The position numbers and the translations under genes were made by a program. From positions 29,413-93,412 of IMG/VR virus record IMGVR_UViG_3300032214_001346: 64,000 bases of DNA, one strand, 5' to 3'. Below, in pieces: positions 17,116 to 42,023 of the stretch (the first letter of the stretch is position 1; the number at the start of each line of letters is the position of its first letter). Source of the DNA: a virus. The notes under the pieces were generated by a model. It worked only from the letters and a program-made list of their open reading frames with translations, ran no database searches and was not told the origin of the DNA.

Positions 17116-17514
17116 ATGTCTACCAAATACGAAAAGAAAAGTAAGTATCAGCAACGGAAAATGGCAGAGAAGAAAAAGATACAGAAGCAAAAAGTGGACT
17201 ACGATAAACGCTATGGTAGTTCTAGGAAATACCGGAAACAGTGTGCGATCGCCCATAAGTCAACCCATGGTTTATGTTGCGTATGTATGGTTAGAAAATC
17301 AGATGAGATACATCATGCTTACTATGGGAAAGATGCAATTGGGGAGTCTACATTTCCGGTTTGCTTATCTTGTCATCAATCTATCTGCCATAGCCCCAAG
17401 AATTGGATTAGAGACGGTAGCAATCCATTGTGGAAAAACAGGAATACTTCAGAATTTTTGCAGCGATTAAGATTAGGATATCAATTGCTCTATGAAGGCA
17501 TAAATCTGATATAA
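17116..17514 (+). CDS. HNH-like zinc-binding protein (paralogue of 36333-36659)
   Basis: A 132-residue protein. CCVCMVRKSDEIHHAYYG and FPVCLSCHQSICHSPKNWI give a C-x2-C, HH, C-x2-CH pattern of an HNH-like finger, preceded by a very basic N-terminus. The paralogue at 36333 shares GxCCVCxxxKSxxxHH and FPVCxxCHxxxCHSPKNWIxD. ATG 17116 is chosen because the earlier frame (from 17065) overlaps the upstream gene and is poorly protein-like. Function may be DNA nicking; the catalytic histidine pair is intact. Confidence 0.65.
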   Translation: MSTKYEKKSKYQQRKMAEKKKIQKQKVDYDKRYGSSRKYRKQCAIAHKSTHGLCCVCMVRKSDEIHHAYYGKDAIGESTFPVCLSCHQSICHSPKNWIRDGSNPLWKNRNTSEFLQRLRLGYQLLYEGINLI

Positions 17515-17574
17515 TTATTTCAACAGGAATTGATACATAAGGTCAAGATAGGTTTCCACAGCCTATCTTTTTTT
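17510..17574 (+). ncRNA. Short promoter-terminator cassette 1 (locus I)
   Basis: TATAAT at 17510-17515, then an intrinsic terminator AAGATAGG/CCTATCTT (17545-17569) with seven T. Predicted transcript about 50 nt. No ORF. Confidence 0.45.
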
Positions 17575-17578
17575 GTGC

Positions 17579-17655
17579 TACAATAAAGGAGGTAGATGCT
17601 CATAAATAATAATGATGCAAGATCAAGATAGGTTTCCCATAGCCTATCTTTTTTA
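17579..17655 (+). ncRNA. Short promoter-terminator cassette 2 (locus I)
   Basis: TGCTACAAT (extended -10, TACAAT at 17579-17584) starts right after the previous T tract. The terminator AAGATAGG/CCTATCTT (17625-17650) repeats that of cassette 1. Predicted transcript about 65 nt containing AAGGAGG. Confidence 0.5.
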
Positions 17656-17685
17656 TTAATTATTGTTATTTAAAAAATACTTTGA

Positions 17686-17753
17686 TATAATAATATGATG
17701 ATAGGTTTTTTGAGGTTTACCTGTGACTTGATGGGGTCGTCCCCATCTTTTTT
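17686..17753 (+). ncRNA. Short promoter-terminator cassette 3 (locus I)
   Basis: TATAAT at 17686-17691 and terminator GATGGGG/CCCCATC (17730-17747) with six T. Predicted transcript about 55 nt. The T run ends just before the convergent gene 17758-18999. Confidence 0.45.
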
Positions 17754-17757
17754 GTTA

Positions 17758-18999
17758 TTAATTATTTAAAAAATAAAGAGTATGCCGTCCTTTAATGCAG
17801 GAATACAAAACTCCTGTGGACTTCATTTGTCGTAACACTCTGTGGATATGTGGAAGGGAGTAATCATTAATTAAGTCGCTTAAAATGCTTTGAGCGTGAT
17901 GGTTATTGTTTTTGATGGACTCAATAACTTGGTCCCTTAATGTGTATCCAGAAACTTTGTTTAGGCTTTCCATGGCGGAAGAATTAGACTTGAGGGCAAT
18001 ATGTAAAGAGTATCCGGTGCGCTTTAACTCAATTAGTCCTTTATTTTTTAGCTTGTGTATAACAACCCAAGCGGATTTACGTGGTATTTGGGATTGTGCG
18101 GATATACCACGAATCCCCAAAGCAATGCTAGTATTTTCTAACACGCTTAAAATTCTTTCAGCAACTTTCTGTGAACCGGGTCGGGGTGTCCAGTCCCCAA
18201 ATAGATGAGAGCGATCTGGGGTGGTGTAGTATTTGATATTATTCTTGGTAACACGACTACAGCACAAGACCCCTTTGCGGGCGAACAGTGATAAGTATGC
18301 AGATATGGTTTTGATGTTAGTGGATTCTGGTAATAGCGATCGCACTTGCTGTAATGTCATTGGCGAGTCGGAATCAACGACAATCTCTAGTACCCTGTGT
18401 TTTAGATTTATGTCTTTAGCTGTGGCTAATTTCTCTTTTAAAGCGGCTGCAGTGGCAGGAACGGGAATTGGTTCAGGTTTAGGTTTCTTGGGCTTTCTAT
18501 TCAATCCTGCCAGTAATTCTTTTCGGTCGGGCGTGGTGTAGTGCCTAAACATCTTTCTATTTTCACTGCAAACTATAATTCCGGCTTTAACAAGTGCTGA
18601 TAAGTAAGCGCAGATACTATCAGGATTACACTGGATTAGTTGTTCTTTAATCTCACTGGCTGTCACTGGATAATCAGCGTTTTTAATAACACTAAATATC
18701 TTGTTTTTCAGAGAGAAATCATTAGCCTCTCTCTTGGTTTTTTTCTTTTCTACCAACTTATTTTCAATGACTTGATGGTGCTTTCGTACTTCTTCTTTTG
18801 CTGTTATTCCATCATATTTCTTGGTGAATTTATCCAATAAAGTGACTTCAATGCCACTACTTCCCCGACTGACTTTGATGCATCCTTCTAACTGTAAAGC
18901 TTCAATATCTTTGCGGTTAAAGTGAGAAAGTTCGCGCAGGTTAATTACTCCTCCACGAACTTTAATAAAGTCTATAATTCCATTTTGGTTTATCAACAT
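17758..18999 (-). CDS. Multi-winged-helix regulator (paralogue of 15877-16722)
   Basis: A 413-residue protein. After the N-terminal domain shared with gene 15877-16722 come several winged-helix units of about 70-80 residues: about 100-165 (IKNADYPVTASEIKEQLIQCNPDSICAYLSALVKAGIIVC), 205-270 (VDSDSPMTLQQVRSLLPESTNIKTISAYLSLFARKGVLCC), 280-335, and 355-410. Each second unit ends in a YYTTPDR-type strand. Repeated winged helices suggest binding to an extended operator. It faces the short-RNA cassettes at 17510-17753. Confidence 0.65.
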   Translation of the reverse strand: MLINQNGIIDFIKVRGGVINLRELSHFNRKDIEALQLEGCIKVSRGSSGIEVTLLDKFTKKYDGITAKEEVRKHHQVIENKLVEKKKTKREANDFSLKNKIFSVIKNADYPVTASEIKEQLIQCNPDSICAYLSALVKAGIIVCSENRKMFRHYTTPDRKELLAGLNRKPKKPKPEPIPVPATAAALKEKLATAKDINLKHRVLEIVVDSDSPMTLQQVRSLLPESTNIKTISAYLSLFARKGVLCCSRVTKNNIKYYTTPDRSHLFGDWTPRPGSQKVAERILSVLENTSIALGIRGISAQSQIPRKSAWVVIHKLKNKGLIELKRTGYSLHIALKSNSSAMESLNKVSGYTLRDQVIESIKNNNHHAQSILSDLINDYSLPHIHRVLRQMKSTGVLYSCIKGRHTLYFLNN

Positions 19000-21404: not shown

Positions 21405-22193
21405 TTAAATTACGTCAACCACAGATGGATACCACTGTAGGGACTGGACGGTTTTATTATGTCCTTTAGCTGTATCCAAAACTATTTGAGAATACTCTTT
21501 ACCCTCTTCCGTTGGCAACCACAACGGGCTAGAACTGCTGGTATTTTTAGTTTGCATCCCTTTTTCCATCAAGAGTAAATTCATCCTTCTAGCGGAAATT
21601 TCTAGCCCTGTTTTTTGAGCATAAAGTTCTGCCAATTTACCAGGGCGCACCAGTTCCTTCTCTACAGGAATGCCTAAGAGGGTTTTTGATTCTTCCATGG
21701 CAGATGCTAACGCAGGATAGCTTTTGGCAATCTGATTAGCTTTGACCCCTGCTATTAAACGTGAGTCTATGGCTGTACAAGCAAATACTAAATCTATCGC
21801 TGTACTTATTTGTTGCATTTCCGGTTGCATGGGAGTCACACCCGGATAACTACCTGATTTCCTGATCGCTGGCAATACTTGTGATGTTACCCACCGCTTA
21901 AACTCTTTAGCTTGTGGTTTATGACTTCCAAAAATACAAGCGTACAATCCAGACTCATTAATGATTGAAACCTTGAAAGTATTGCTGCTAAAGGATTCCG
22001 CCAAAATGGCGGAATCTAATTTTTTGGGATTAATCACATCCTTGTCTTCAGTATCTACGAGGTTCAGCATTTTTGATAAATCGGCATAATCAAAAATTTC
22101 TGCAACATCTTTAGCTACAAACCAAGGTTCGCCGTCAATCATCAAAACGCGGACTTGGTTGTTATTAAAATTAAAAGCTGTTAAAGTAGTCAT
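21405..22193 (-). CDS. BRO-N antirepressor with phage C-terminal domain
   Basis: A 262-residue regulator. Residues 1-115 form a BRO-N domain (VRVLMIDGEPWFVAKDVAEIFDY, then INESGLYACIFGSHKPQAKEFKRWVTSQVLPAIRKSG). Residues 150-262 form a helical domain nearly identical to the C-terminus of gene 34562-35383 (RPGKLAELY, PLWLPTEEGK, LQWYPSVVDVI). Such proteins counteract the phage repressor or switch development. A structured leader (22219-22267) and a TATAAT promoter (22275-22280) lie upstream, and a terminator lies at 21372. Confidence 0.85.
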   Translation of the reverse strand: MTTLTAFNFNNNQVRVLMIDGEPWFVAKDVAEIFDYADLSKMLNLVDTEDKDVINPKKLDSAILAESFSSNTFKVSIINESGLYACIFGSHKPQAKEFKRWVTSQVLPAIRKSGSYPGVTPMQPEMQQISTAIDLVFACTAIDSRLIAGVKANQIAKSYPALASAMEESKTLLGIPVEKELVRPGKLAELYAQKTGLEISARRMNLLLMEKGMQTKNTSSSSPLWLPTEEGKEYSQIVLDTAKGHNKTVQSLQWYPSVVDVI

Positions 22194-22218
22194 AGTTGAC
22201 CTGTTAGTTAGGTTGACC

Positions 22219-22280
22219 CCAGCGATAAGACTTCATGGGTGGCTGTATCCACCTTTTGAAGTGCTGGTATTTTAATTATA
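22219..22280 (-). promoter_or_regulatory. Structured 5' leader C with promoter
   Basis: Minus-strand -10 TATAAT (22275-22280) then three stacked stems: CCAGC/GCTGG, ACTTCA/TGAAGT and GGTGG/CCACC. The same layout with different bases occurs at 24032-24085 and 34477-34528. Confidence 0.65.
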
Positions 22281-23239: not shown

Positions 23240-24007
23240 TTATTCACCAATTAATCTTTGTCTAGTATCTCCAAATATTAAATCAATGACTTCATCCAAT
23301 GAATCAGGTGCAACATACTCACTAGTAGAGTGCCTCGTAACGGGTATTAATAAATCATCACGGTTCATGTTCCGTAATTTATCAGCTACCCATTTAAGCG
23401 AAGGTATCTTTTGTCCAGTACGCTTTTTAATTTCTGCTTTGAGTTGATCAGCAGTCAGGATTTTGGATACTTTACCCGTTTTTAGTTGCACAATCTCAGT
23501 AGCCAAAACTTCAGACTTGACAATCTGATCTGACATCCCTCTTAATGCTAAAACTGTTTCTTTGCCGTGCATAGTGAGCATAGACGAGTCTATTTCTTTG
23601 CCTTTGTTAATTTCCTTGGCAACTGCTAACTGAAGTTCTAGCTCACGGATACGCTCTGACTGTTGGGGAATAACGGTTTTTATGACGGCTTTAGCATCTT
23701 TAAATGCTTTGACCAGCGATCGCTTACATTGTCTAACCTTATCAGTGTTTTTGGATAAAGTCATTACGTAAGTAGCTTGGTCTTCATTCAAATAACAGAA
23801 AACGGTTGTATTCTTTGCACCGACTGAGTTTATTGCAGTTCCGTTTTCAAATCGGAGGTATCCAAACTCTTGAATTTCTGTCCAGTATTTCTTGATTGTT
23901 CTAACAAATGATTCATGCTCAATACTTAGCTCCCTGGCAATGAGTCGGGAATCAACAACCAGTTTACCATTTCTGTCAATTACGTCAATTTGTGTTAAAC
24001 TATTCAT
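23240..24007 (-). CDS. Rha-family phage regulatory protein
   Basis: A 255-residue protein. Residues 1-100 match the Rha domain (VDSRLIARELSIEHESFVRTIKKY, then CYLNEDQATYVMTLSKNTDKVRQCKRSLVKAF). The C-terminus (KILTADQLKAEIKKRTGQKIPSLKWVADKLRNM) looks like a second DNA-binding helix set. ATG 24007 has AGAGG 5 nt upstream; GTG 24013 is less likely. It is expressed from the duplicated promoter with structured leader B. Probably controls the lysis-lysogeny switch. Confidence 0.85.
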   Translation of the reverse strand: MNSLTQIDVIDRNGKLVVDSRLIARELSIEHESFVRTIKKYWTEIQEFGYLRFENGTAINSVGAKNTTVFCYLNEDQATYVMTLSKNTDKVRQCKRSLVKAFKDAKAVIKTVIPQQSERIRELELQLAVAKEINKGKEIDSSMLTMHGKETVLALRGMSDQIVKSEVLATEIVQLKTGKVSKILTADQLKAEIKKRTGQKIPSLKWVADKLRNMNRDDLLIPVTRHSTSEYVAPDSLDEVIDLIFGDTRQRLIGE

Positions 24008-24031
24008 ATCCACCTCTTATTTTTAAGTTGA

Positions 24032-24098
24032 TTACCAGTGACATAACCGTTAGGAATGTTGATACCGTTCTTAACGGTGCTGGTATTTTAATTATAAC
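24032..24098 (-). promoter_or_regulatory. Structured 5' leader B with promoter
   Basis: Minus-strand TATAAT (24091-24096), then stems TACCAG/CTGGTA (24032-24037 and 24080-24085), ACCGTTA/TAACGGT (24045-24051 and 24072-24078) and GAATG/CGTTC (24053-24057 and 24066-24070, one G-U pair). Same architecture as leaders A and C. Confidence 0.65.
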
Positions 24099-28662: not shown

Positions 28663-28703
28663 GTGGTTTTAGAAAATATTTGTTTCGCTTGCTTGCTTGA
28701 ATT

Positions 28704-28811
28704 CTTGCAATTAACCCAGTCCCTCAAGTCCGGTTTCACCACGCTGAAACACAATTTAATACTTTAACTTACACCTTGCAATTAACTCAGTCCCTCAAGG
28801 TCGATTTCACC
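28704..28811 (-). CRISPR. Outer CRISPR mini-array, two degenerate repeats
   Basis: Repeats at 28704-28740 and 28775-28811 (37 nt each) flank one 34-nt spacer (28741-28774). They differ from the main repeat mostly in the middle and match its ends (CTTGCAATTAA... and ...TTTCACC). A TATAAT promoter in the adjoining 36-bp sequence would start transcription about 3 nt before the first repeat. Confidence 0.75.
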
Positions 28812-28847
28812 TTTACCCCTATTATAGCATTATTTCTTATTAGGAAA
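28812..28847 (-). promoter_or_regulatory. 36-bp duplicated promoter, copy at the mini-array
   Basis: Identical to 29200-29235. Minus strand contains TGCTATAAT (extended -10) followed by AGGGGTAAA, and then the repeat begins. Its length equals a spacer. Confidence 0.65.
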
Positions 28848-28941
28848 CAATTGCTCAAGTACCCGTCCTACAGTAGTTCCTAACCACTGACCACCGCGTT
28901 TTGAGGGTATGTTTTTATTGTTTAAATAATCTGCGATCTAG

Positions 28942-29181
28942 CTAAAAATCAACTCTACCATCACTGTTTAATTGGAATGTTTCGGCGTAGTCCTTGGCGA
29001 TGAAACTGCTTATTAAGTCTACAGTGGTTACTTCGTTCATGGTTTTGTCGTAATACTGAGCATAATCTGATATGGTTTTATAGGCCACTATTAGGTTTAT
29101 GGCACTAGCTTTTAGTTCCGGGTTGTTCCAATCTGTCTTGTTGATGAACGCCAATTCTTTGCTGATATCCATTAATTCCAT
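28942..29181 (-). CDS. 79-residue ORF inserted in the CRISPR array
   Basis: A small acidic helical protein (MELMDISKELAFINKTDWNN..., with ASAINLIVAYKTISDYAQYYD). It lies between two identical 36-bp sequences and two blocks of CRISPR repeats, on the array strand. The upstream copy of the 36-bp sequence is its promoter. Size, charge and place are compatible with an anti-CRISPR or regulator of the nuclease, but no homology supports that. Confidence 0.5.
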   Translation of the reverse strand: MELMDISKELAFINKTDWNNPELKASAINLIVAYKTISDYAQYYDKTMNEVTTVDLISSFIAKDYAETFQLNSDGRVDF

Positions 29182-29199
29182 AGCTTTTAAGGGGTAGGT

Positions 29200-29235
29200 T
29201 TTACCCCTATTATAGCATTATTTCTTATTAGGAAA
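29200..29235 (-). promoter_or_regulatory. 36-bp duplicated promoter, copy at ORF 28942-29181
   Basis: Same sequence as 28812-28847 and directly next to the last main-array repeat. TGCTATAAT on the minus strand lies about 25 nt upstream of the ATG at 29181. Confidence 0.65.
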
Positions 29236-29236
29236 T

Positions 29237-29637
29237 CTTGCAATTAACCCAGTTTCCCAAGGTCGGCTTCACCAATTAAATAGCACCGGCACTAATGATG
29301 AGATAAGAGTCTTGCAATTAACCCAGTTCCCTAAGGTCGGTTTCACCTTCTGAATATTGAATCTTTGATAGAAGCTAACTTGCAATTAACCCAGTTCCCT
29401 AAGGTCGGTTTCACCAACTCGATGTTTTTTATTCCTGATTTTGAATCAAATCTTGCAATTAACCCAGTTCCCTAAGGTCGGTTTCACCCAAACCGGGAGG
29501 GTTGATGGAATTTAGGTCGACACTTGCAATTAACCCAGTTCCCTAAGGTCGGTTTCACCTTTGAAGCTCAAAAAAAGAGATTAGAGTTGAATTTTCTTGC
29601 CTTGCAATTAACCCAGTTCCCTAAGGTCGGTTTCACC
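29237..29637 (-). CRISPR. Main CRISPR array, six 37-nt repeats
   Basis: Repeats start at 29237, 29311, 29379, 29452, 29523 and 29601. The five nearest the nuclease gene are identical, and the 29237 copy has three changes. On the minus strand the repeat begins GGTGAAACCGACC and ends GGGTTAATTGCAAG. Spacers are 37, 31, 36, 34 and 41 nt (coordinates 29274, 29348, 29416, 29489, 29560), all unique. Decay increases away from the nuclease gene, as expected for the trailer end, so transcription on the minus strand with the gene is inferred. No cas1 or cas2 is present. Confidence 0.88.
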
Positions 29638-31371
29638 TGCCGTATCCCAGATCGTAAGCTGTGTAAAGGTTTCATCCCCTGATTGCGCGGATCTCTTATT
29701 TTTCTTTGTTCCAGGTTTTTGAGTTTTCGCTGAATTAGCTGAAATGCTTATTGGGTAAGGTGCGCGGGTGCTTGGTAAATTGTCAAGGTTCGGATTGCTT
29801 ACGGTGTCTACCTTTGAGGTTGTTTTCACGGCTTTAGAGGTTTTTACATCCCCCCTTCCGCGCTGAGTTCCCCTTTCGGGGTTTAATTGGGAGGAATATC
29901 CATCCTCCGGTGGTGCTTGCACACCTTCCTGGTGACATCCCGTATTGGAATCAGAGCCAGGCTTTCGGGTTTCCCCATGTTCCCACGCCCAAGCGCGGTA
30001 CACTGCTGATAATTGTTTTTTGCCTTTGAGCAAGATGTTCTTAGCTGCATTAGAATCACGTCCTTCTGTGTGACCACATTCTGTACAGCGGTGAGTTCTT
30101 TGGCTCAATGCTTTCTTTATTTTAGCACCACATTTTGAACAGTCAACCGTAGTGAAATGAGCAGCAACTTTTACAAACTCTCTATCAGTATCTTTACACT
30201 TTGTTTCAATTTTACTGATTAAATCACCCAGTGCTGAATCAGCAAAACTTTTGTTTAACCCAGCTTTACGTTTTGCACCGTTTTGTTCATAGCCATTGCC
30301 GTCCTCACGTTTCTTGGCTTTGGGCTTACGGTTCAGGTTTTGTATCTTTAAGTCTTCCATCACAATCCCAGAATACTCACGCACAACTTTAGTAGATAAC
30401 TTATGGTTAAAAGCGTTACGGCTGCGGCGGATCTTTTCATGGTGTAAAGCTATTTTTTGATAGGTTTTCTTCTGATTACATCCTCCCTTTTGTTGCCTAG
30501 ACGCTTTACGCTGTAACCGTCTTAGCTTTGCTTGTTGTTTCCTAAATAGCTTAGGCGGTTCTATTTCTCTCCCCTGATCTGTGGTGATAATTGATAGTAA
30601 ACCCGGATCAATTCCTACTGCTTTATCAGATTTTGGTAATGGGTCATTGGGGATATCAACGCATACATGAAGATAGTAACCTGATGGTTCTTTAACTATT
30701 CTGGCAGGACCCCATTCTTGCCAGTCATATCTATCAAATAATCCTTTAACTTTAATTTTACCAAGTTTAGGGAACTGGACATAGCCATTATTTGAGCCGG
30801 GTATTTTTTCCGGTTTTAGTTCTTTGGATAAACCCCCAGCATTGAGATTAACAAGTGACTTGATTTTATCATTTCTCCCTTTGAATTTTGGCTTTCTACC
30901 GGGGTGTTTTGGGGTAACGTAAGCTTTCCATGATTTCTTTAAAGAATCAATTACCCCTGCCTTAAATTTAGTGGGAACATCTGCCATAAAGTCGGGAATA
31001 TTGTCACTCCTATAAAATTCACATTGTCCATATTTATCAGGGTTTTCAATATTCAAATGTTGTCTAATTTCACAGTAAGGATGACCGCTTTTAGGTCTGA
31101 TGACACCTGTACCGACTAAGCGGACTTTTTCCCACTTCTCAGTAGACTTACCTTTCTTGTCTTCAGTAACAACCTTTCGCCATTTCCACTGCAAAACTAC
31201 ACCATCAGGAATAATGCGATCGCTTATTTCTTTCTCTCTATAATATTTCTGTCTTCCTGCTAGTTTGAGTGACAGCCCTGTATTCCAAACCCACTTGAGT
31301 TTGTCTAGCCATTGATTAATCGTTTGTACCTGTGCAACCGTGGGGTCAAGTTTAAATTCAAAAGTTTTCAT
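29608..31371 (-). CDS. TnpB-like type V-U-like CRISPR effector nuclease
   Basis: A 587-residue RuvC nuclease of the TnpB/Cas12 superfamily. RuvC I is AVGIDPGLLS (D255), RuvC II is SGIVMEDL (E339), and RuvC III is GRDSNAAKN (D439). A zinc finger of two CxxC pairs (C411, C414, C429, C432) lies between II and III. All key residues are present. Residues 451-587 are a polar, Pro/Ser/Lys-rich tail. The last nine residues, GETDLRELG, are encoded by the first CRISPR repeat, which also supplies the stop. The adjacent array makes a CRISPR effector more likely than an IS605 TnpB. No TnpA is present. Cyanobacterial V-U2 (C2c8) is the closest named class by host and size, but this is not proven. Confidence 0.85.
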   Translation of the reverse strand: MKTFEFKLDPTVAQVQTINQWLDKLKWVWNTGLSLKLAGRQKYYREKEISDRIIPDGVVLQWKWRKVVTEDKKGKSTEKWEKVRLVGTGVIRPKSGHPYCEIRQHLNIENPDKYGQCEFYRSDNIPDFMADVPTKFKAGVIDSLKKSWKAYVTPKHPGRKPKFKGRNDKIKSLVNLNAGGLSKELKPEKIPGSNNGYVQFPKLGKIKVKGLFDRYDWQEWGPARIVKEPSGYYLHVCVDIPNDPLPKSDKAVGIDPGLLSIITTDQGREIEPPKLFRKQQAKLRRLQRKASRQQKGGCNQKKTYQKIALHHEKIRRSRNAFNHKLSTKVVREYSGIVMEDLKIQNLNRKPKAKKREDGNGYEQNGAKRKAGLNKSFADSALGDLISKIETKCKDTDREFVKVAAHFTTVDCSKCGAKIKKALSQRTHRCTECGHTEGRDSNAAKNILLKGKKQLSAVYRAWAWEHGETRKPGSDSNTGCHQEGVQAPPEDGYSSQLNPERGTQRGRGDVKTSKAVKTTSKVDTVSNPNLDNLPSTRAPYPISISANSAKTQKPGTKKNKRSAQSGDETFTQLTIWDTAGETDLRELG

Positions 31372-31383
31372 GGTAAAATAGAT

Positions 31384-31471
31384 GCGTGGGTATGTTGGAC
31401 CTACTCCTAGTGGTGGATTGATGCTGAGAACATCACCACGCGACTAGGTTTAAATATTATAGCATTTAAAC
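31384..31471 (-). promoter_or_regulatory. Operator-promoter and structured leader of the effector gene
   Basis: Minus strand: GGTTTAAAT and ATTTAAACC are perfect 9-bp arms (31448-31472) around TATAAT (31456-31461), so a repressor could cover the -10 box. The leader then forms GCGTGG/CCACGC (31384-31389 and 31436-31441) with ATGTT/AACAT inside (31392-31396 and 31429-31433). Confidence 0.6.
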
Positions 31472-34464: not shown

Positions 34465-34552
34465 TATAATAATTGAAACCAGCACCGTAAAGAGTGTAGT
34501 AGCACTCAGAACGGTTGTATCGCTGGTTAACATTTCACCCGTAAGAGCGGGT
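34465..34552 (+). promoter_or_regulatory. Structured 5' leader A with promoter
   Basis: TGCTATAAT (-10 at 34465-34470), then stems AACCAGC/GCTGGTT (34477-34483 and 34522-34528), ACCGT/ACGGT (34484-34488 and 34511-34515) and GAGTG/CACTC (34492-34496 and 34503-34507). A second hairpin ACCCG/CGGGT sits close before ATG 34562. Same architecture as leaders B and C. Confidence 0.7.
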
Positions 34553-34561
34553 TAATCTGTC

Positions 34562-41233: not shown

Positions 41234-41521
41234 TCAGTTGTGTTCATCAAATAGTTTAGACGCTTCATAAAAACGCTGGACTCTTTTTTGCTGTTTAAAG
41301 CCTTCTAATATTTTATTTAAGCGTCTTGTGATTTCGTTAGCAATGTGCTGATTTTCTTTGAAGCTATAATCTTCATAGTTGCAATCAGAGTTAATGGCAA
41401 TGTTTCGTGTTGCTGATGCTTCTTTGCTGTTATTAAGTATTTTGTATAGCATTGCTGTACGTTTAAGGGTTACATCTGTATTTAAGAAACTTTCTACTGG
41501 TATCTCAGTATTTTTGTTCAT
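41234..41521 (-). CDS. 95-residue helical hypothetical protein
   Basis: MNKNTEIPVESFLNTDVTLKRTAMLYKILNN..., helical, with a basic stretch (ITRRLNKILEGFKQQKRVQRFYE). AGAGGAAA precedes the ATG. It lies opposite to the cassettes at 41537. Function unknown. Confidence 0.55.
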   Translation of the reverse strand: MNKNTEIPVESFLNTDVTLKRTAMLYKILNNSKEASATRNIAINSDCNYEDYSFKENQHIANEITRRLNKILEGFKQQKRVQRFYEASKLFDEHN

Positions 41522-41536: not shown

Positions 41537-41598
41537 TATAATATAGTCAAGTGCGTGAATTTAGCGGAATCAGTGGCTATAATTCCACTGATTTTTTT
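41537..41598 (+). ncRNA. Short promoter-terminator cassette 1 (locus II)
   Basis: TATAAT (41537-41542), then AATCAGTGG/CCACTGATT (41568-41593) with seven T. Predicted transcript about 50 nt; no ORF. Confidence 0.45.
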
Positions 41599-41604
41599 GT
41601 GTGC

Positions 41605-41679
41605 TATAATCATGAAAATAGAACCCCTTGTTACTATCAAGTCAGTCCAGTGATCACTTCAACATCACTGGATTTTTTT
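41605..41679 (+). ncRNA. Short promoter-terminator cassette 2 (locus II)
   Basis: TGTGCTATAAT (extended -10, TATAAT 41605-41610), then TCCAGTGAT/ATCACTGGA (41646-41672) with seven T. Predicted transcript about 63 nt. Confidence 0.5.
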
Positions 41680-41685
41680 ATGTGC

Positions 41686-41752
41686 TACAATCGTAATGAG
41701 CATACCTGGTTACGTGAATCTAGCGATCGCCTCAATGTCGCTAGATTTTTTT
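41686..41752 (+). ncRNA. Short promoter-terminator cassette 3 (locus II)
   Basis: TGTGCTACAAT (TACAAT 41686-41691), then ATCTAGCGA/TCGCTAGAT (41718-41746, containing a HIP1 site) with seven T. Predicted transcript about 55 nt, ending at the convergent XRE gene. Confidence 0.5.
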
Positions 41753-41756
41753 CTTT

Positions 41757-42023
41757 TCAATATACGTTTTTTGGAAGTAAGGATTGAATAGGGAGATTTA
41801 AGGCATTGGCAATTGATTCAATCTCACTAAATGCTATGGTCTGTCTTCTGCCGTCCCGTTCTTTGAACAAGTCTTCTATGGCAATAATGACGTTCACTGA
41901 TTTATCAATTTTTGCTGCTAGTTGTTTCCTGGACATTCCCGCTTTTTCACGAGCTATATAAATTAAGATTCCTATTTTTCCTTCTGTGGACAAGGTTTCA
42001 AAGCTATTTGGTTCTACAATCAT
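41757..42023 (-). CDS. XRE-family regulator
   Basis: An 88-residue protein. GILIYIAREKAGMSRKQLAAKIDKSVNVIIAIEDLFKERDG and IESIANALNLPIQSLL are the full five-helix Cro/CI-type fold. It converges on the short-RNA cassettes and diverges from the prohead protease gene, so it may repress the head operon. Confidence 0.8.
   Translation of the reverse strand: MIVEPNSFETLSTEGKIGILIYIAREKAGMSRKQLAAKIDKSVNVIIAIEDLFKERDGRRQTIAFSEIESIANALNLPIQSLLPKNVY

Follow-up and report, generated by a model that had tools for sequence, protein, structure and literature searches.

At positions 41537-41752 of the window that we analysed (64,000 nucleotides, or 29413-93412 of a 93,412-bp virus contig), three short units follow each other on the plus strand. 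We call this row locus II. Each unit is 70-80 bp long and consists of a -10 box, then 20-35 nt, and then a perfect hairpin of 9-10 bp that runs into seven Ts; the next promoter comes directly after each terminator. A perfect stem and then a T-run of at least 6, which is how we defined an intrinsic terminator, is present in 3/3 units (stems of 9, 9, and 10 bp on the plus strand, with 7-T tails). The gap between the -10 box and the hairpin is 25-35 nt, which is too small for a gene.

The -10 box of unit 1 is a plain TATAAT without the TG extension (41537-41542, +), and it overlaps a possible minus-strand -10 box for the neighboring ORF. The predicted RNA of unit 1 spans 41549-41598 (+), with the hairpin at 41568-41593 and T7 at 41592-41598. 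Unit 2 has a predicted extended -10 promoter, TGTGCTATAAT, at 41600-41610 (+), and its RNA would span 41617-41679 (+; hairpin 41646-41672, T7 41673-41679). The extended -10 promoter of unit 3, TGTGCTACAAT at 41681-41691 (+), is predicted from the sequence and from relatives, and the RNA would span 41698-41752 (+; hairpin 41717-41747, T7 41746-41752). (We infer the starts of all three RNAs.) The predicted RNAs fold 2.0-3.5 standard deviations below shuffled sequences (in locus II, z = -3.5 for units 1 and 2 and -2.5 for unit 3), which is expected because they contain terminators.

A preliminary description of this DNA had reported three perfect terminators with seven Ts each, which are indeed there, and three extended -10 promoters, which holds for units 2 and 3 but not for unit 1. 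The GGCTATAAT that was taken for the extended -10 box of unit 1 is a hairpin loop, and this loop is inverted relative to all of the relatives that have the unit.

Locus II is flanked by a 95-aa ORF without a family match (41234-41521, -) and by a gene for an XRE/HTH_3 regulator (41757-42023, -), whose stop codon is 4 bp past the T-run of unit 3. The array had been placed upstream of the XRE gene, but by the direction of transcription it is downstream of this gene and convergent with it. We rejected a coding reading of the units, as no ORF matches any of them. An ATG in unit 2 was also rejected as a start codon: it is 2 nt past the -10 box and ahead of the expected start of the RNA. No known RNA family was found in Rfam at the gathering score (other families matched only weakly and below the threshold), and there were no tRNA genes within the window.

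The contig has a GC content of 38% and contains 51 HIP1 sites (GCGATCGC), which indicates a cyanobacterial host. A 523-aa protein from the contig is 60% identical to a protein of Aphanizomenon phage vB_AphaS-CL131 (CL131), so judging from this protein, the virus likely infects one of the Nostocales. A search with the terminase as the probe did not identify a matching prophage or host genome.

A second array in the same virus

As had been noted before, the same architecture recurs about 24 kb away: a second three-unit locus, locus I, lies at 17507-17755. Its units are at 17507-17571 (+; TGATATAAT at 17507-17515, hairpin at 17545-17569, and a T-run), at 17574-17654 (+; TGTGCTACAAT at 17574-17584, hairpin at 17625-17650, and a T-run), and at 17683-17753 (+; TGATATAAT at 17683-17691, hairpin at 17730-17747, and a T-run). 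In this contig the -10 boxes are TG-extended in 3/3 units; in relatives, the box of the third unit reads TATGAT. The T-run of that unit stops 4 bp short of the end of a convergent gene (17758-18999) whose 413-aa product has Pfam matches of the winged-helix type. Locus I is kept in 7/7 contigs.

To judge what chance would produce, we generated 64 kb of order-1 Markov sequence in each of 60 trials. This control gave 0.07 strong terminators per strand, compared with 8 on the plus strand of the window. Triples of terminators occurred in none of the 60 trials and twice on the plus strand of the window; terminator-promoter joints occurred in none of the trials and three times on that strand. Across the 93-kb contig, 6 of the 21 strong terminators fall inside loci I and II. 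The motif TGCTAYAAT occurs 12 times (1.9 expected).

Units are related within each locus

Alignments of U2 with U3, of U1 with U3, and of locus I unit 1 with locus I unit 2 each had scores that were matched by 0/500 shuffles, so each array has at least two related units that adjoin. By this sequence comparison, the units of locus II are diverged paralogs, as are the first two units of locus I. No clear homology between the units of locus I and those of locus II was found by alignment. The claim that the stems are unrelated is therefore right between the two loci and wrong within them, where the units are diverged duplicates. The stem arms are TCCAGTGAT/ATCACTGGA in U2 and TCTAGCGAT/GTCGCTAGA in U3; two pairs have changed on both sides and one has become G-U, so the pairing has been preserved.

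The loop of unit 1 (41577-41584) is CTATAATT in this contig and AATTATAG in all of the relatives that have unit 1, and a related contig (L171) has hairpin 1 of locus I in the inverted form. Close relatives thus differ in the orientation of a terminator loop in two different hairpins. Such inversions can result from template switching at inverted repeats. Given these inversions, template switching may keep the stems perfect without selection on the RNA.

Conservation and loss in related viruses

We found 13 related contigs that cover locus II. The row of cassettes is genuine and is retained in these viruses: unit 3 is present in 13/13, unit 2 in 12/13, and unit 1 is intact in 11/13. In L135, units 1 and 2 are deleted and the remaining first -10 box is altered to GTAAT. 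In L133, the promoter of unit 1 was lost together with the 5' part of the neighboring 95-aa ORF. Conservation of the promoter boxes had been suggested as a check, and the boxes of units 2 and 3 are retained in every relative that has these units (0/11 positions are variable in the unit 2 box; the unit 3 box has a C/T change in some relatives). The TATAAT of unit 1 is likewise kept where relatives carry the unit.

We counted variable sites across eight full haplotypes, leaving out the inverted loop. Locus II has fewer variable sites (16/208) than fourfold sites do (49/231, p = 8e-5) and about as many as other intergenic DNA nearby (18/209, p = 0.86). These counts suggest that locus II is likely to be under constraint, but not a constraint that is specific to the cassettes. 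Within the array, unit 1 has zero variable sites outside the inverted loop and the 38 tail and stem bases of unit 3 are invariant, with 4/7 bases variable between the -10 box of unit 3 and the start of its RNA (all across the eight haplotypes). In L134 and L138, the stem of unit 2 has one C-A mismatch.

The array is absent from the related isolate CL131. Distant relatives that were found via a neighboring 282-aa protein (L164-L169) have other gene neighborhoods and no array. Searches of plasmids and of the phage genomes in INPHARED gave no match to the array.

Proposed function and alternatives

Locus II is a row of three tiny, related gene cassettes that are probably non-coding. We propose, with a little more confidence than doubt, that locus II is an array of trans-acting sibling small RNAs of a cyanophage. 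The anatomy of the units suits short RNAs that would be transcribed independently, as the preliminary description had it, and the two triples, the paralogy of the units, and their retention in relatives also speak for this proposal. The RNA polymerase of the host would transcribe each unit from its own promoter, which is of the extended -10 type in most cases, and each transcript would stop after 50-65 nt, where it meets a strong intrinsic terminator. This would yield three presumably stable RNAs with a hairpin at the 3' end and with differing 5' tails of about 20-30 nt. The units would have been duplicated and then diverged, and the likeliest action of the 5' tails would be to base-pair with mRNAs of the host or the phage. 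Several observations argue against small RNAs: locus II is no more conserved than nearby intergenic DNA; U2 has a broken pair in two relatives; template switching may account for the perfect stems; the promoter of unit 1 is weak; and CL131 and the distant relatives lack the array. Also, when we searched the starts of the phage's mRNAs for base-pairing targets, none rose above background. We rejected a pairing of the third unit of locus I with the leader at 22195, which seemed strong at first and was gone once we took the folding of each partner into account.

Another role, which we doubt but take seriously, would be in cis: the array might block plus-strand readthrough that is antisense to the convergent regulator gene, and its RNAs might be antisense to an mRNA that runs from XRE to the 95-aa ORF. 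The basis for this idea is the position of the two arrays: each stops 4 bp short of the stop codon of a gene that converges with it on the minus strand and that encodes an HTH- or winged-helix-like protein. On the minus strand, no T-run follows the hairpins, so transcription of the XRE gene could cross the array into the 95-aa ORF, although this ORF may have a promoter of its own. Unit 3, which is nearest to the regulator, is the only unit that is present in all relatives. However, insulation requires terminators and not the promoters that intervene, and the RNA of unit 3 would end ahead of the XRE coding region, so it would not be antisense to it. (An antisense RNA to the repressor of the lambda OOP type was rejected because there is no overlap: the T-run of unit 3 ends at 41752 and the XRE gene ends at 41757.)

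It seems unlikely that the units are repeated terminator-promoter joints without any RNA function, that is, remnants of cassettes that used to contain small genes and that recombination and template switching at the inverted repeats have preserved or rearranged. The same joint does lie before what look like ORFs in numerous viral contigs, including several that are cyanophage-like; units have been deleted in L133 and L135, hairpin loops invert, and the conservation of locus II does not exceed that of other intergenic DNA. But the array has fewer variable sites than fourfold sites, and no relative was found with a gene inside a unit. The units might instead encode guide or anti-guide RNAs for the TnpB-like or CRISPR-like locus that the phage itself carries (TnpB-like gene at 29608-31371, repeat array at 28689-29637), which we consider very improbable. 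Against this, 37-163 of 200 shuffled repeats pair with the locus II units as well as the real repeat does, and for the best unit of locus I, 11/200 shuffles were as good. Kinship of the units to the CRISPR-like repeat, whether by similarity or by pairing, was rejected.

If they are transcribed, the sibling small RNAs of locus II would form a compact array that is borne by a phage, with relatives that hold 3, 2, or 1 intact units, and the divergence that followed duplication could be traced across these relatives.

Comparison with known small RNAs and with other phages

The closest described parallel is NsiR1 from Nostoc sp. PCC 7120, an RNA of about 60 nt that is present in 12 tandem copies with individual promoters (PMC9045159). 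The array resembles NsiR1 in the predicted size of its RNAs, in the tandem copies with individual promoters (which for the array are predicted), in the divergence of the siblings, and in the cyanobacterial setting. It differs in being borne by a phage, in having 3 copies instead of 12, and in being more divergent. NsiR1 lies upstream of hetF and has DIF1-type promoters, whereas the array has the 95-aa ORF on one side and the XRE gene on the other. TCCGGA, which is the DIF1 hexamer, is absent before every unit. The array would work in the manner of NsiR1, but a scan of Rfam gave no homology between the two.

Other tandem sibling small RNAs, such as PrrF1/PrrF2, OmrA/OmrB, and AbcR1/AbcR2, are thought to have been duplicated (PMC4211561). 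As in the array, these are related small RNAs that are encoded side by side. In contrast to the array, they are chromosomal, their expression has been demonstrated, and their targets are known.

A search for two successive units identified 11 viral contigs besides this phage group. Several of these are of the S. thermophilus phage type, with the array downstream of the endolysin gene. The streptococcal arrays (L178 and L184) have an extended -10 box, a short stretch, a terminator-like repeat, a T-run, and then the next extended -10 box, as in the cyanophage. However, they have two units, are in another position, and have no sequence homology to the cyanophage array, and their middle hairpin is imperfect by our strict test. 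The records for TP-J34 and TP-778L annotate some of the terminators and -10 signals at these arrays. L178, L179, L184, L185, and L186 have extended -10 boxes arrayed with terminator-like repeats past the endolysin gene, and DNA that is similar to the streptococcal arrays is present in 354 phage records. Some of these streptococcal phages are cultured, so they could be a testing ground for such cassettes at the bench.

Viral contigs often contain the joint of a hairpin, T7, and GTGCTATAAT. Of the T-runs in these joints, 53/120 come after a perfect hairpin, as compared to 76/1823 of the other T-runs in the same loci. As in locus II, TGTGCTATAAT follows the hairpin and T7 at once; judging by eye, what comes after the joint is in many cases an ORF, whereas in locus II it is another terminator. 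When we searched genomes for the two-unit pattern, it turned up in other phyla, and a perfect hairpin precedes the middle T-run in just 1 of 13 loci (L190). A different element, TTTTAGTTCCCTGATGTTTTTTGGTGTGATATAAT, is repeated several times in a contig from a Clostridia MAG (JAFTHP010000028.1; L193 and L196). We speculate, with considerable doubt, that minimal promoter-terminator RNA cassettes that are tandem-duplicated beside regulator genes could be a general device of phages. Such a device might have evolved independently in streptococcal phages and in cyanophages, and it might encode diverging families of regulatory RNAs.

Structured leader RNAs and a CRISPR-like locus

By way of other TGTGCTATAAT boxes, we found a structured leader RNA in the window at 34469-34556 (+), with the motif CCAGCAC...AAGA...GGnnnTATCnCTGG. 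A covariance model matches three places in the contig and two in CL131. The other copies in the window are at 24004-24093 (-) and 22195-22277 (-), and there are copies elsewhere at L203 2878-2965 (-), L204 14803-14887 (+), L173 692-781, and in L214-L232. In the contig, the leader RNAs come before three genes with different regulator domains: one is weakly KilAC-like, one is of the Bro-N type (21405-22193), and one is of the Rha type (23240-24013); in CL131, they precede gp002 and gp062, the latter of which is annotated as an antirepressor. A scan for the leader pattern found 20 places, with an ORF start 21-36 nt past the motif in 20/20, and KilA-N is one of the gene types behind the motif (by Pfam). 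The leader RNA often comes directly after an extended -10 box. In an alignment that was fitted to the model, 10 of 17 pairs have changed on both sides, which 0/500 shuffles equalled, and this covariation collapses in slid controls. The leader RNA has no match in Rfam, and it may be of greater interest than the small RNA array.

A second structured leader, at 31375-31460 (-), lies ahead of the TnpB-like gene, and an 81% identical copy precedes gp061 of CL131. Adjoining the same gene is the CRISPR-like array, which has eight repeats of about 37 nt in two blocks, with a spacing of 68-78 bp. An exact 36-bp repeat with TGCTATAAT occurs twice, 388 bp apart. A type V-U2 locus has been published for CL131 (PMC6293099).
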